Source of the DNA: Acidobacteriota bacterium
GTDB lineage: Bacteria > Acidobacteriota > Terriglobia > UBA7540
DNA: 64,000 nucleotides
Direction of reading: 5' to 3'
NCBI GenBank assembly: GCA_023474345.1
Contig: JAMCXS010000028.1
Location: 1-64,000 of the forward strand
The notes below the pieces were generated by a model that was given only the letters and a program-made list of their open reading frames with translations, was not told where the DNA came from and made no database searches. Of the stretch, positions 4,263-11,178 are shown one piece after another. Numbering within the stretch: the stretch's first letter is position 1; every line of letters starts with the position of its first letter. The position numbers and the translations under genes were made by a program.

Positions 4263-4451
4263 GGACGTATCTGCTCAACACTGTGACCAGAGGAATGCCT
4301 AATTAGCCGGTTTTACAATGGATTAGCGTCCGCACTCGCTTCCGGAAAACCTGATCGCAGCCTTTGTGGTGCATGGTTATGTAAGACCTCATGCCCGCGC
4401 AACATTGTGCATGCGCATGAACTGTCATGCGACCTGGCGCTCAAGGATTAG

Positions 4452-4582
4452 CAGGTTGCTGAAAAAGTCCTGGAAGTAGCTTCGATGAGTCCATTTCATG
4501 CTGCTAACTTATTGATTTTCGGTTCGAGCGAGCGATAAATTTGGCAGCTTATGGGCCGCGAAAAGAGTTTTTCAGCAACCTG
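4452..4582. mobile_element. MITE-like element with 15-bp terminal inverted repeats and a possible TTAG target duplication
   Basis: CAGGTTGCTGAAAAA (4452-4466) and its exact reverse complement TTTTTCAGCAACCTG (4568-4582), flanked by TTAG at 4448-4451 and 4583-4586. Confidence 0.65.
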
Positions 4583-5666
4583 TTAGGCAAGATGCGAACT
4601 CGGGCAAGCATTTACAAGTTCAAGGCATTTTGCTGGCGCATCCAGGAAATCTTAAAAGTGACCGATAAGAGACTTTCCCCGTCATTAGGGCACTTCTTCG
4701 CAAAGCATTGCGTCATCCTTCCGGATGGCTTTGACCGGTCTATTTCGAGGTACTCGTATGAGATGGGGGCGCGGAATTTCAAACGGCGTTTAGTATTACG
4801 GACGATTACGCCAGTACGGAATGCGTAAAAAGAAGGTCGCGCGGATGCTTGGAGTTGCGCGCAGCAAGCTGTACTTTTAATTAACCAGTTGCAGATGAGT
4901 TGCGCAGATGTGTTGACTTACTGACGCGGTGTCCTAACTGGTACGACCCATGTGGTTTACTGATCGGCATTATTGTTCCCATCCTTATGGCGTCAAAGCA
5001 AGGTAATCGTTATGATATTATTCGGCTATTTACTTGTTGCTTCAAATTTTCCATGTTAGTTATTTAACTATACAGAAGTGTCGAGCTGATATACACGTGC
5101 TGGTTAACACCTCAACCGCGGAACTCAAGAGAAAGTCCACGCTCTGGCGGATGCCCGAATCGGCCCCTGCTTGGCAAGGAGGGAATACGAAGGTTGAGAG
5201 GTTTTGATAATCGTTTTCCGGGGTAAGAGCAAGGGCGCAAACATCCTGTTTCTTCCCGACGTTGCGGTGGGGAGGTGGCAAGGGGAGCCGTTAGTCAGCT
5301 TTGAGTATTCGGGGACAAACGGCCTTAATTCTTGCGGGACCGTTAACTGTGACCATCAAGGATGAAGAATAATAGCTCAGAAGGAGGGCGGTGGAATCTA
5401 AGTCTGCTGGGAGAGACCCTTTTAGCGAGGGAAAGTTGGGGGCTGGTTCTTACCATGTGAGTGTAAAGAGGCATCTGTCGGAGGGCTCGACAAGGGGATC
5501 ACGGAGTGCTCACTGGGGTTTGTAGTCGTGAAGAGATTTAATTGAGCGTTCGCTGTTGAGCGCGACCGGTCGTTTGGAGTGCTGGGCGGACGCCAGGGCA
5601 AAGTTGACATTTTAGGTACGCTAAGCGCGAGGCAGAGGGGGGCTGCTTTCGACGGAGGAAGCGACG

Positions 5667-6038
5667 ATGATCCGAATCTGCCACCTTGCGATGTACCTTA
5701 TCGTAACTATTCTTTCCCCTCTCTCGGATGGAGAATTCCTGGATCTGCAGAACAACCTGAACAAACAAATCCAAGCATCACGATCACAAGCGGTGGTTAT
5801 GGATGTCAGCGGGTTGGACGTGATGGACTCATTCACGTGCCGAACCCTGAGCGACCTTAGCTGCCGGATGAAGGCACAAGGAAAAGAAACTGCAATCATC
5901 GGTATCCACCCTGAAATTGAAGAATCGATGAAGCGTTTTGGGTTGAGGCTTGAGCATGCCGCTATCGCCACAAACCTGGAAGAAGGGCTGGCGGTGTTAG
6001 GCAGGAGGATTGCGACCAAACGTCATGGCAGCAACTAG
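5667..6038 (+). CDS. STAS-domain anti-sigma factor antagonist, RsbS-like
   Basis: VVMDVSGLDVMDSFTCRTLSDLSCRMKAQGKETAIIGIHPEIEESMKRFGL; GGAGG Shine-Dalgarno upstream. Confidence 0.85.
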   Translation: MIRICHLAMYLIVTILSPLSDGEFLDLQNNLNKQIQASRSQAVVMDVSGLDVMDSFTCRTLSDLSCRMKAQGKETAIIGIHPEIEESMKRFGLRLEHAAIATNLEEGLAVLGRRIATKRHGSN

Positions 6039-6441
6039 TTATCACCGTGAAGTGAGGGTGCCAGTGAGATCTGACTTGGACGTCCTAAAGGCGCGTCAAG
6101 ACGGGCGAGAAATGGCCCGTGAGTTGGCTTTTATCTCGGCCGATTCAACATTGGTCGCGACAGCAATTTCTGAATTGGCGCGCAACATCATCCAGTATGC
6201 TGGTCAGGGAGAGATTATTATTACTGCTGCCGAGGAAGGCGCAAGGCGCGGGATCATTATTGTGGCACACGATGATGGGCCGGGTATCCCCAACATTTCG
6301 GAGGCCATGCAGGATGGTTATTCCACTTCTGGAGGGCTTGGATTAGGTCTTCCCGGAGTAAGACGGTTGATGGACGAGTTTGAAATCTTTTCTGAAGTGA
6401 ATGCAGGGACAACTGTCAGAGTGAAAAAGTGGTTGCGTTAG
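6025..6441 (+). CDS. Serine kinase / anti-sigma regulatory factor, RsbT-like
   Basis: SELARNIIQYAGQGEI, DDGPGIP, STSGGLGLGLPGVRRLMDEFEI GHKL ATPase motifs; ATG at 6025 preferred over the TTG at 6010; overlaps RsbS stop. Confidence 0.85.
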   Translation: MAATSYHREVRVPVRSDLDVLKARQDGREMARELAFISADSTLVATAISELARNIIQYAGQGEIIITAAEEGARRGIIIVAHDDGPGIPNISEAMQDGYSTSGGLGLGLPGVRRLMDEFEIFSEVNAGTTVRVKKWLR

Positions 6442-6567
6442 GGTTCGACTGATAACGCAAGGCTCGAACGCGTAGGGTCCTAGTCAAGAGAGGCTCGGGG
6501 GGGCGGGGGTTGACGATCATGAGCGGCCCTCGGGGACCAGGGGGCGTAATGAGTTTTCGAGGTTAAG

Positions 6568-8055
6568 GTGAGCATGGAGCCGGAAAGTAAGAACAGGCAA
6601 CTCGAGATAGGCGCAGCACGGAATGTGCAGGCTGAAGCTGCGGGAAACGCCTCGATATCTCCTGGCCCGCGGCCTTATAAACGCTCTGTCAAGGACGAAC
6701 TGGCAGAGCAATACGGCGCGGCGTTAGAGGAATATTTGCAACAGCCTGGTGAAAAGGCTTTGCAAAATGCATACGAGATAGGACGACAGGCCATTTCCGG
6801 CGGACTATGTGTCACGGAAATGCTTGCCATGCATCACGACGCTTTATCGAGGGTCCTGATATCGTTTGGAGCTCAGGGAGAAGAGAGTGAGGACTTGATG
6901 ACTCAACGCGGGGCCCTGGAAGGTAGGTCGTTGCCTGTTGGGAGCCCACAGGATTTCCAACACTTGGTGAAATCTGTCGAGGTATTCCTCGATGAGTGTC
7001 TCATGCCATTTGAGATAACTTATCGTGGCTATGTCGAAGCCAACGAGGCGCTCCGTGTGAGCGAAGAGCGTTACCGTGAATTGTTCGAGAATGCAAACGA
7101 CGTCATCTTCACGACCGACCTGCTGGGAAATTTCATTTCGATCAACAGAGCGGGCGAGCGCATGATCGGGTATGTGCGAGAAGAGGCAAGACGGATGAAC
7201 ATTGGTGAGGTATGCGCGCCGGAATGCCAGGAAATGGCTTACCGCATGTTGGACCGAAGAGTCATGGGGGGAGAGTCTGGTCCTTGCGAACTGGAATTAT
7301 TAACGAGGGATGGCCGGCGGATTCCCGTAGAGATTAGTTGCCAGCTTGTCTGTCGGGAGGAGAAGCCCATTGGCATACAGGCGATTGCACGCGATATTAC
7401 GGAACGTAAGCGCGCCCGCGAGTCGTTGCGTCACTTGACTCAAGCCCTGGAACAGGAAGCGAAACGAATTGCCCATGCGCTTCATGACGAGGCAGGGCAG
7501 CTTCTTGCGTCCGTCCATATTGCTTTGGAGTCGGTTGCCCGGGAATTGCCTGCCGCGCAGGGTCAACGCGTCCGAGCAATACAGGGGTTGCTTGACGAGA
7601 TCGAGAATCAATTGAGGCGACTCTCGCATGAGCTTCGGCCCACAATTCTGGATGATTTGGGGCTCGTGCCTGCCATTGAGTTCCTGACTCAGGGAATTTC
7701 GGCGCGGACAGGGCTTCCTATTGAGGTCGAGGCCGGGGGAGTGGGCCGTCTTCCAACTCACATTGAGGAAGTTCTTTACCGGGTTATTCAGGAAGCTCTT
7801 ACCAACGCCAGCAAGCACGCCAAAGCGACCAGCATTAACGTCAACTTGAGGCAAGAGGCGAGGGAGTTTATCTGCCAGGTTCGGGATGATGGAACTGGCT
7901 TCGACTTGCGTGCGGCCTTAGCCGATAATAATGAGCGCGGATTCGGCTTGATTAATATGAAGGAACGGCTTAACTTCGTGGGAGGGACTTGCGTGATTAC
8001 TTCAAGTCCGAACCATGGGACTGAAGTGTTAATTACCGTGCCTTTAGAAAGCTAA
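6568..8055 (+). CDS. PAS-domain sensor histidine kinase (HisKA_3/HATPase) with possible RsbU-type N-terminal domain
   Basis: N-term ELAEQYGAALEEYLQQPGEKALQNAYEIGRQAISGGLCVTEMLAMHHDAL; PAS region; KRIAHALHDEAGQLLASVHIALE; VIQEALTNASKHAKA; DDGTGFD; GFGLINMKERL. Confidence 0.88.
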   Translation: MSMEPESKNRQLEIGAARNVQAEAAGNASISPGPRPYKRSVKDELAEQYGAALEEYLQQPGEKALQNAYEIGRQAISGGLCVTEMLAMHHDALSRVLISFGAQGEESEDLMTQRGALEGRSLPVGSPQDFQHLVKSVEVFLDECLMPFEITYRGYVEANEALRVSEERYRELFENANDVIFTTDLLGNFISINRAGERMIGYVREEARRMNIGEVCAPECQEMAYRMLDRRVMGGESGPCELELLTRDGRRIPVEISCQLVCREEKPIGIQAIARDITERKRARESLRHLTQALEQEAKRIAHALHDEAGQLLASVHIALESVARELPAAQGQRVRAIQGLLDEIENQLRRLSHELRPTILDDLGLVPAIEFLTQGISARTGLPIEVEAGGVGRLPTHIEEVLYRVIQEALTNASKHAKATSINVNLRQEAREFICQVRDDGTGFDLRAALADNNERGFGLINMKERLNFVGGTCVITSSPNHGTEVLITVPLES

Positions 8056-8056
8056 A

Positions 8057-8695
8057 ATGCCGCTCAATATCTTGCTCGCCGACGACCATCAGATTGTACG
8101 CCAAGGCTTGAAGGCCCTTCTTGAAGAAGAGGGTTTTAAGGTCGTGTGTGAGGCATCGAACGGTCAGGAAGCCATTGCCATGGCGCGACTGCACGAGCCG
8201 GACGTCGCCGTGCTCGACCTCTCGATGCCGGTCCTAAACGGTATTGTGGCGGCGGAGGAGATTCGTAAATCTTCAGGGAACAGAATTCGCGTTGTCCTTT
8301 TGACGGTCCACTCCGAACGCCAATACGTTTTGCAGGCCATGCGTGCGGGAATCCGTGGATACGTTTTGAAAACGCGTGCTGCCGCCGATCTCATCCAGGC
8401 GATTACGGATGTTAGCAACGGGCTTACGTACTTGAGTTCGGGCGTATCCCAGGCAGTGGTGGAAGCATATCTTACCAAGGAAGAATTGGCGTCACAGGAA
8501 AGCCTAACTCCCAGGGAGCTTCAGGTCCTTCAATTGGTGGCCGAAGGAAAGACCACCAAGGAGGTTGCCTCCTTGCTGGGTGTCAGCTTCAAGACGGCGG
8601 AATCACACCGCACGAGGATTATGGAGAAGCTGGATATTCATGAAACTGCCGGGTTGGTTCGCTATGCCATCCGCAAGGGCATCATCCAAGCGTGA
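8057..8695 (+). CDS. NarL/LuxR family response regulator
   Basis: LLADDHQIVRQGL receiver, VAVLDLSMP, C-terminal LTPRELQVLQLVAEGKTTKEVASLLGVSFKTAESHRTRIMEKL. Confidence 0.94.
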   Translation: MPLNILLADDHQIVRQGLKALLEEEGFKVVCEASNGQEAIAMARLHEPDVAVLDLSMPVLNGIVAAEEIRKSSGNRIRVVLLTVHSERQYVLQAMRAGIRGYVLKTRAAADLIQAITDVSNGLTYLSSGVSQAVVEAYLTKEELASQESLTPRELQVLQLVAEGKTTKEVASLLGVSFKTAESHRTRIMEKLDIHETAGLVRYAIRKGIIQA

Positions 8696-9062: not shown

Positions 9063-9536
9063 ATGAGGGAAGGCGAGAGCGGACATATGTCTGGGGTTGG
9101 AGATGGGGTGCCCCTCCAAGTGCTCCTAACGGAGACTTATGCGATGGCTCGAAGAGAACTGTGCGATTTACTCGCGAGCCAGGGATTTCAAATGGTTGCG
9201 GAAGTAACGGACAACCGGAATGCGATCCGTTTGATCAAACAATTCAATCCCGACGTTGCAATCTTGGACGCCGCCAGCGAGTTCGTAGCGGGTCTTAAAG
9301 CTGCCCGGGAAATTCTCCTTTGGAATCAAAAGGCCAAGATAATTCTTCTTAGTTTGCACGCTGAAGGGCAGTATGCACTGGCGGCTCTCCAGGCCGGAGT
9401 TCGAGGTTACGTCTTGAAGGGCAGGGCAGTAGCCGATCTCGGCCAGGCCATATGTAAGGTCTCAAAGGGAGGCATATACCTGAGTTCTGGTGTTTCTTTT
9501 TCGCTAGTAGAAGCCTATCTGCCTGGGAATGAATAG
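9063..9536 (+). CDS. Stand-alone receiver-domain protein, no output domain
   Basis: Paralogous to the 8057-8695 receiver (LHAEGQYALAALQAGVRGYVLKGRAVADLGQAI...VEAYL); ends where the partner's linker to the HTH begins. Confidence 0.75.
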   Translation: MREGESGHMSGVGDGVPLQVLLTETYAMARRELCDLLASQGFQMVAEVTDNRNAIRLIKQFNPDVAILDAASEFVAGLKAAREILLWNQKAKIILLSLHAEGQYALAALQAGVRGYVLKGRAVADLGQAICKVSKGGIYLSSGVSFSLVEAYLPGNE

Positions 9537-10035: not shown

Positions 10036-11178
10036 ATGATAAGTGCTATCGCCAATCCAAAACCAAGCGAGCTGGAGCAAGTCCAGTCTGAAGACTACGG
10101 TATTACTCAGCACCAGGATGCTCCATTGAAGCTTGCCACACGGGAGAGCTATCGCTTACCTGAGTGCAGCAGCGTGCAGGGGGACCATGGTACCGTTGTG
10201 GCGGCCAGCGCCGCCATGCAAAGAGTCCTTGAGCAAGTACGCCAAATAGCGAACCTTGACATCCCTGTTCTCCTTTTGGGAGAAACTGGAACAGGCAAAG
10301 AGGTTGTAGCCCGGTTAATTCACAGCACCTCGTGCCGGGCCCATCGGACCTTCATGAGGGTTAACTGCGCGGCACTTCCTTCCGAACTGCTTGAGAGCGA
10401 GCTTTTCGGACACGAAGTAGGGGCTTTCACAGGGGCAACCCACGCAAAACCCGGAAAGTTTGAAATCTGTCAAAGGGGAACGATCTTCCTGGATGAGATC
10501 GCGGAAATGCCCATCGGACCCCAGGCAAAATTCTTGCACGTCCTCCAGGACGGCGAGTTTTCAAGACTTGGAAGCCCGTTTCCGAAAAGAGTCGATGTGA
10601 GGATTCTTGCCGCGACGAACGTCAATATCCAGCAGGCGATCGCAGCCAGACAATTTCGGGAGGACTTGTATTACCGTGTCAGCGCTTATTCGATATACAT
10701 TCCTCCACTGCGTGCGCGACGGGAAGACATCCCACCACTGATCGAACATTTTATGCGTATTTGGGCGGGTCGTCTCGGCCGGTTCCCACTTCCACTTTCA
10801 CCACTCCTGCTCCAGGCATGCTTGCACCATCCATGGCCTGGGAACGTCAGAGAATTGGAAAACTTTATAGGCCGGTACGCAATTTGCGGGGACGAGGCCC
10901 AAGCTCTTAGTGAGTTACACAGCTATGGCACCAATGTGGACTGCCATTCTAAACGGGAGTCGAGTGAGACCGGTTTCCCGCCGGGCGATCTCAAATCGCG
11001 GGTTCGCAGGCTGAAAAAGGAAGCCGAAAAGGAAGCAATCGTTCGTGCGCTCGAAATGACAAGGGGGAGCCGAAAAGATGCGGCGCGAATGTTGAATATT
11101 AGCGTACGAGCCCTGCAGTACAAGATGCTTGAGTGTGAAATTACTCGTTCTCCGGGTATTCCCGCCTTGGAAACGTAG
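10036..11178 (+). CDS. Sigma54-dependent AAA+ activator with Fis-type HTH, no receiver domain
   Basis: LLLGETGTGKEVVARLIH Walker A, ESELFGHEVGAFTGA, GTIFLDEIAEMP, PWPGNVRELENFIGRY, GSRKDAARMLNISVRALQYKM. Confidence 0.93.
   Translation: MISAIANPKPSELEQVQSEDYGITQHQDAPLKLATRESYRLPECSSVQGDHGTVVAASAAMQRVLEQVRQIANLDIPVLLLGETGTGKEVVARLIHSTSCRAHRTFMRVNCAALPSELLESELFGHEVGAFTGATHAKPGKFEICQRGTIFLDEIAEMPIGPQAKFLHVLQDGEFSRLGSPFPKRVDVRILAATNVNIQQAIAARQFREDLYYRVSAYSIYIPPLRARREDIPPLIEHFMRIWAGRLGRFPLPLSPLLLQACLHHPWPGNVRELENFIGRYAICGDEAQALSELHSYGTNVDCHSKRESSETGFPPGDLKSRVRRLKKEAEKEAIVRALEMTRGSRKDAARMLNISVRALQYKMLECEITRSPGIPALET

Follow-up and report, generated by a model that had tools for sequence, protein, structure and literature searches.

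A possible RsbR-free stressosome output module beside an RsbU_N histidine kinase in an Acidobacteriota genome

Gene content of the locus

The window analyzed here is a 64-kb stretch of DNA from an Acidobacteriota bacterium. The locus begins with rsbS (5667..6038, + strand), which encodes a STAS antagonist of 123 aa (PF01740, 2.7e-12), and rsbT (6025..6441, + strand), which encodes a HATPase switch kinase of 138 aa (PF02518/PF13581). These genes share 14 nt and both frames are open, as the original prediction had placed them. Downstream lies a histidine kinase (6568..8055, + strand; GTG start, 495 aa), characterized using Pfam and an AlphaFold model, with the domain order N-extension, RsbU_N, linker helix, PAS, HisKA_3, and HATPase. 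It is separated by 1 nt from a NarL/GerE-type response regulator (8057..8695, + strand; PF00072 at 6.1e-29, PF00196 at 4.1e-18), and these two frames are also open. Pfam assignments (PAS, HisKA_3, HATPase, PF00072, PF00196) bear out the earlier description of a PAS histidine kinase followed closely by a NarL-type regulator, and a HisKA_3 and HATPase kinase adjoining a REC-GerE regulator is a typical NarL-type two-component pair.

Between rsbT and the kinase, where relatives carry an rsbX of ~205 aa, there is a gap of 126 nt (6442..6567). The region equivalent to rsbR (~300 aa in relatives) is 4263..5666, 5' of rsbS. It includes what is left of a sigma54 activator, a frameshifted C-terminal fragment (4718..4874, + strand). 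Further downstream are a stand-alone receiver-domain protein (9063..9536, + strand; PF00072, 2.4e-15) and a sigma54-dependent activator (10036..11178, + strand; PF00158, 2e-65).

A second genome of the same genus (G423, 88% complete) shares this gene order, with the kinase (74.5% identical), the regulator (93%), the stand-alone receiver, and the sigma54 activator all syntenic. It has no rsbS, no rsbT, and no STAS match anywhere in the genome. Upstream of its kinase is an intact sigma54 activator, of which the window holds only the frameshifted piece.

The kinase carries an RsbU_N domain

The first ~100 residues of the kinase had been proposed to resemble the N-terminal region of RsbU, and Pfam identifies them as RsbU_N (PF08673) at residues 47-112, with a score of 39.5 bits (cut-off 25.5; 6.3e-10). 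The matched part spans 6706..6903 on the + strand, and the domain runs on beyond an insert to ~7068. The other Pfam domains are PAS (about 165-285), HisKA_3 (299-360), and HATPase (401-494). AlphaFold modeled residues 1-175 as four confident helices (41-58, 62-77, 82-101, and 127-174), mostly at pLDDT 94-99, with the last one long and unbroken into the linker. Residues 102-126 form a poorly ordered insert. This insert of ~24 aa is genus-specific, and both it and the 42-aa N-extension are shared with a genome that lacks rsbT.

The model is consistent with the helical bundle expected of RsbU-N. The matches of a Foldseek search included, with high probability, RsbU-N (1w53/2j6y), a Moorella protein (3zta), and the KaiA C-terminal domain; for 1w53, 2j6y, and 3zta the probabilities were 0.80-0.95, yet the E values were non-significant, near 0.25-1.2. 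A phmmer search of the PDB using the N-terminus alone gave no useful match. Because the Pfam match is solid and the fold E values are weak, the sequence evidence outweighs the fold evidence here. All the RsbU_N signature residues, defined as those conserved at ≥90%, are present: Y49, E62, L65, Y69, G72, R73, H89, E143, E149, and R153. In the G423 kinase, from the genome without rsbT, R153 is lost, and in another genome without a clear rsbT (L032) four signature residues are lost, although these are small numbers. A chance resemblance to RsbU was considered and rejected on the Pfam score and the synteny, as both the RsbU_N match and the conserved gene order are far beyond chance.

The likely partner of this domain is intact. 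RsbT carries the HATPase N, G1, and G2 boxes and keeps 41 of 42 near-invariant columns, including the equivalent of D78, with an intact ATP site. It is 47-64% identical to the RsbT of related loci.

The operon in other genomes

RsbU_N was present in 15 of 396 genomes sampled from the phylum and in 15 of 40 genomes of the order. We then compared 105 rsbT loci, drawn from these genomes and from a GTDB scan and representing its best-scoring matches. Among these, 39 have the full operon rsbR-rsbS-rsbT-rsbX-(RsbU_N)kinase-regulator, a fraction that is not a census. The full-operon records belong to Acidobacteria, Rokubacteria, Eisenbacteria, Nitrospirae, Verrucomicrobia, Ignavibacteriales, and Bacteroidetes. 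The synteny of rsbS-rsbT with an RsbU_N kinase and a regulator is thus conserved across several phyla, and this comparison shows that the complete operon is the ancestral arrangement, which persists in relatives.

In the three typical loci checked, RsbR is RsbRD-like, with one over the Pfam cut-off and two slightly under it. The RsbX of relatives is a SpoIIE-type phosphatase, encoded between rsbT and the next gene in most non-Bacillus relatives. Many relatives' kinases have no PAS domain, and RsbU_N and the linker helix lead straight into HisKA_3.

Since the kinase has an RsbU_N domain and the pairing of rsbT with an RsbU_N kinase is kept in many genomes, we infer, with good support, that RsbT would act on the kinase. 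The original prediction regarded a direct RsbT-to-kinase link as notable. It is not without precedent, as kinases with RsbU_N beside stressosome genes have been described (PMC9237108, PMC12143880).

Loss of rsbR and rsbX

The stressosome (RsbRST) is an icosahedral complex of 1.8 MDa. Its RsbR co-antagonist and its feedback phosphatase RsbX are both missing here. Six-frame profile and tblastn searches of the 1.4 kb 5' of rsbS found no hidden or frameshifted rsbR. Furthermore, neither rsbR, rsbX, nor RsbU was found elsewhere in the window or in the assembly (75% complete), and rsbR and rsbX were not found in G423. A search of viral contigs gave no match. The original prediction of a locus with no RsbR, RsbU, or RsbX therefore stands for the window and the assembly, including for unlinked rsbR paralogs. 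Its further statement that RsbV and RsbW are absent does not, as an unlinked RsbV/RsbW-like pair is present on another contig. Nor is a locus without RsbR and RsbX the usual design: both are present in nearly all relatives, and we therefore regard their absence here as a loss in this lineage.

Because the assembly is 75% complete, an unlinked RsbR could have been missed. This leads to the second rival reading, in which an ordinary stressosome persists, with its RsbR gene in the quarter of the genome that the assembly lacks and RsbS building a core together with RsbR. In Bacillus, the extra RsbR paralogs are indeed unlinked. However, family relatives that bear the operon carry essentially one RsbR each, and it is linked; neither RsbR nor any STAS match was found in G423, whose genome is 88% complete; and the residues that would contact RsbR are gone from this RsbS (see below). 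We consider a missed RsbR improbable on these grounds, even with the precedent of several RsbR co-antagonists in B. subtilis (PMC3944199).

Loci that have lost other parts of the system were also found. In two (L021, G153:C153; L020, G208:C226), rsbT lies next to the gene for an RsbU_N protein, and both rsbS and rsbR are missing; 10 of 42 conserved columns are gone from the RsbT of the former, and that of the latter looks normal. In a second genus of the same family, a locus (L065, G415:C175) has an rsbS fragment with an in-frame stop (reverse complement, about 5743-5880) directly 5' of an RsbU_N kinase. The sole other sampled complete-sequence locus with rsbS-rsbT and no adjacent rsbR is from Neobacillus (L147), and it has an RsbR-like gene ~2 kb downstream.

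On contig C12 of the same assembly (L034, G000:C12:218000-226500), a FliA/WhiG-like sigma gene lies within a few hundred bases of the RsbV-like STAS and RsbW-like HATPase genes, which make up a distinct partner switch of this genome.

RsbS has diverged at its assembly interface

The best PDB match to the RsbS sequence is B. subtilis RsbS (6jhk, E 1.2e-12). AlphaFold predicts a confident STAS fold (pLDDT 91.3) that is again closest to RsbS 6jhk (6e-10). In trees of both RsbS and the kinase core, the proteins sit next to those of G427. A foreign STAS protein in place of RsbS is ruled out by this nearest sequence, fold, and tree neighbor.

RsbS is nevertheless highly diverged. The compared relatives are 69-88% identical to one another and 39-47% identical to this RsbS. 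In trees of 33 taxa, the mean patristic distance to the others, divided by their own mean, was 4.46 for RsbS, 1.13 for RsbT, and 0.99 for the kinase core. Among columns conserved at ≥90%, RsbS has lost 20 of 48 and RsbT 1 of 42; the consensus is mostly non-Bacillales, and Bacillales RsbS also deviate from it but agree at key contact columns. We mapped these losses onto the assembly-interface residues defined for B. subtilis RsbS by Kwon 2019 (PMC6760441). Conserved columns were lost at 8 of 11 interface positions versus 10 of 34 elsewhere (p = 0.016), a difference that weakens to p = 0.05 when the conservation threshold is set at 80%. In Listeria, a leucine of RsbS plugs a pocket in RsbR (PMC9237128), and we took the contact residues from that paper. 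Among 100 other sequences, the plugging position is Leu in 98 and Met in 2, and the pocket position is Val/Ile in 99; this RsbS has Ala and Lys there, respectively.

The surroundings of the phosphorylation site have been kept. A phosphorylatable serine, S55 in DVMDSF, aligns with B. subtilis S59, and residues 39 to 64, a region picked after the alignment was seen, retain 12 of 13 conserved columns. The alignment thus shows an RsbS that has changed at its predicted RsbR-contact residues and has retained the phosphoserine loop.

The main rival reading is decay of the whole switch: after the loss of rsbR and rsbX, rsbS would be eroding without function, rsbT would follow, and the kinase would end under PAS control alone, as in G423. 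That genome does retain the kinase and regulator only, the second genus has a broken rsbS, and RsbS here evolves ~4 times too fast, which could be decay and not a new role. Moreover, B. subtilis without any RsbR shows constitutive signaling, and control of RsbT is lost (PMC3944199). Against decay, the overlapping frames are both open, the rate of RsbT evolution is normal, with 41 of 42 conserved columns retained, and the changes in RsbS are unevenly spread, sparing the phosphoserine loop. A simulated neutral ORF with this level of change stayed stop-free in about 5-10% of cases, with indels not counted, so a stop-free rsbS does not by itself exclude decay. We judge this reading rather unlikely.

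Alternatively, RsbS could have been repurposed for another STAS or HATPase partner, such as the RsbV/W-like pair on C12, which would tie the kinase to a sigma-factor switch. The proximity of that pair to a FliA/WhiG-like sigma gene is what suggests it. The pair is unlinked, however, and this RsbS keeps an RsbS-type phosphoserine loop alongside an RsbT under normal constraint, making repurposing very improbable.

A proposed mechanism

Taken together, we favor, at a probability of roughly 0.5, a reduced, RsbR-free stressosome output module in which RsbT docks on the kinase and RsbS is at most a small brake. In the kinase dimer, RsbT would bind RsbU_N together with the start of the linker helix. 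Docked RsbT would favor the active kinase, leading to autophosphorylation and then transfer to the NarL-type regulator. RsbS would form no icosahedral core and at most a small dimeric brake, which would be released when RsbT phosphorylates S55. Since RsbR is not there to help retain RsbT, nor RsbX to reset RsbS, RsbT is probably free for the most part and a near-constant kinase partner; most of the signal would then come from the PAS domain, probably the remaining sensor. The 24-aa insert in RsbU_N and the 42-aa N-extension might alter or abolish RsbT docking. A stronger version, in which RsbS and RsbT, adapted once RsbR and RsbX were lost, form a free-standing, non-icosahedral partner switch that directly gates the kinase through RsbU_N, with an RsbS surface that is adapted and not decayed, is a tentative possibility.

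Relation to known systems

Free RsbT activates RsbU via RsbU_N and the linker (PMC12143880). RsbU_N signaling proteins, including kinases, adjoin stressosome genes in two reports, Heinz 2022 (PMC9237108) and Baral 2025 (PMC12143880), both of which name Proteobacteria; the latter includes a model of an RsbU_N NreB-like kinase. An open-access literature search found no paper on an RsbT-to-kinase link via RsbU_N in Acidobacteriota. RsbT action on a kinase is an already published idea, and the novelty here lies in a lineage that lost RsbR and RsbX and whose RsbS changed to match.

Like the published RsbRSTX modules with RsbU_N outputs, the present locus has rsbS-rsbT followed by an RsbU_N signaling protein, in this case a histidine kinase with a response regulator. 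It differs in that a PAS domain lies between RsbU_N and the kinase core, that rsbR and rsbX are absent, that RsbS is changed at RsbR contacts, and that the host belongs to Acidobacteriota. Complete rsbRSTX-(RsbU_N)HK-RR operons in Acidobacteriota and other phyla (for example L060, L053, L093, L105) have orthologous rsbS, rsbT, kinase, and regulator genes in the same order but, unlike here, also have an RsbRD-like RsbR and RsbX. In the Moorella thermoacetica MtRST-MtG system (Quin 2012, as cited in PMC12143880), RsbT likewise acts on the RsbU_N of a non-phosphatase output; as described there, that output is a diguanylate cyclase and RsbR is present. The Vibrio vulnificus stressosome also adjoins two-component genes (VvD1/VvD2) and lacks sigB, whereas it has RsbR and RsbX, and no RsbU_N was detected in VvD1. 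Bacillus RsbRST-RsbU shares the RsbS/RsbT switch and RsbU_N as the RsbT target but differs in its PP2C phosphatase output, full stressosome, and sigma-B cascade.

The stressosome field assumes that RsbS holds RsbT only jointly with RsbR in the shell. A lineage with RsbS, RsbT, and an RsbT target but no RsbR or RsbX is a natural experiment on this assumption, and it tells apart the RsbS residues that shell assembly requires from those that RsbT requires. More broadly, wiring of RsbT to a histidine kinase is common among rsbT-bearing Acidobacteriota and is found in several other phyla, having been reported earlier in some Proteobacteria. Because it is so widespread, the small PAS-less kinases, with RsbU_N joined to HisKA_3, are good material for testing RsbT activation.

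Variant arrangements were also seen among the sampled loci. The fourth locus checked for its RsbR type (L030, G317:C303) has a protoglobin RsbR and two consecutive RsbT-like genes, the second of which ends a longer protein. In seven loci of an actinobacterial order (L110, L127, L132, L138, L143, L162, and L168), RsbT also ends a longer frame and is followed by RsbR, RsbS, and a short RsbU_N protein. Finally, two records titled Methanosarcinales archaeon and uncultured archaeon (L101, L111) contain rsbR-rsbS-rsbT-rsbX with an RsbU_N protein.
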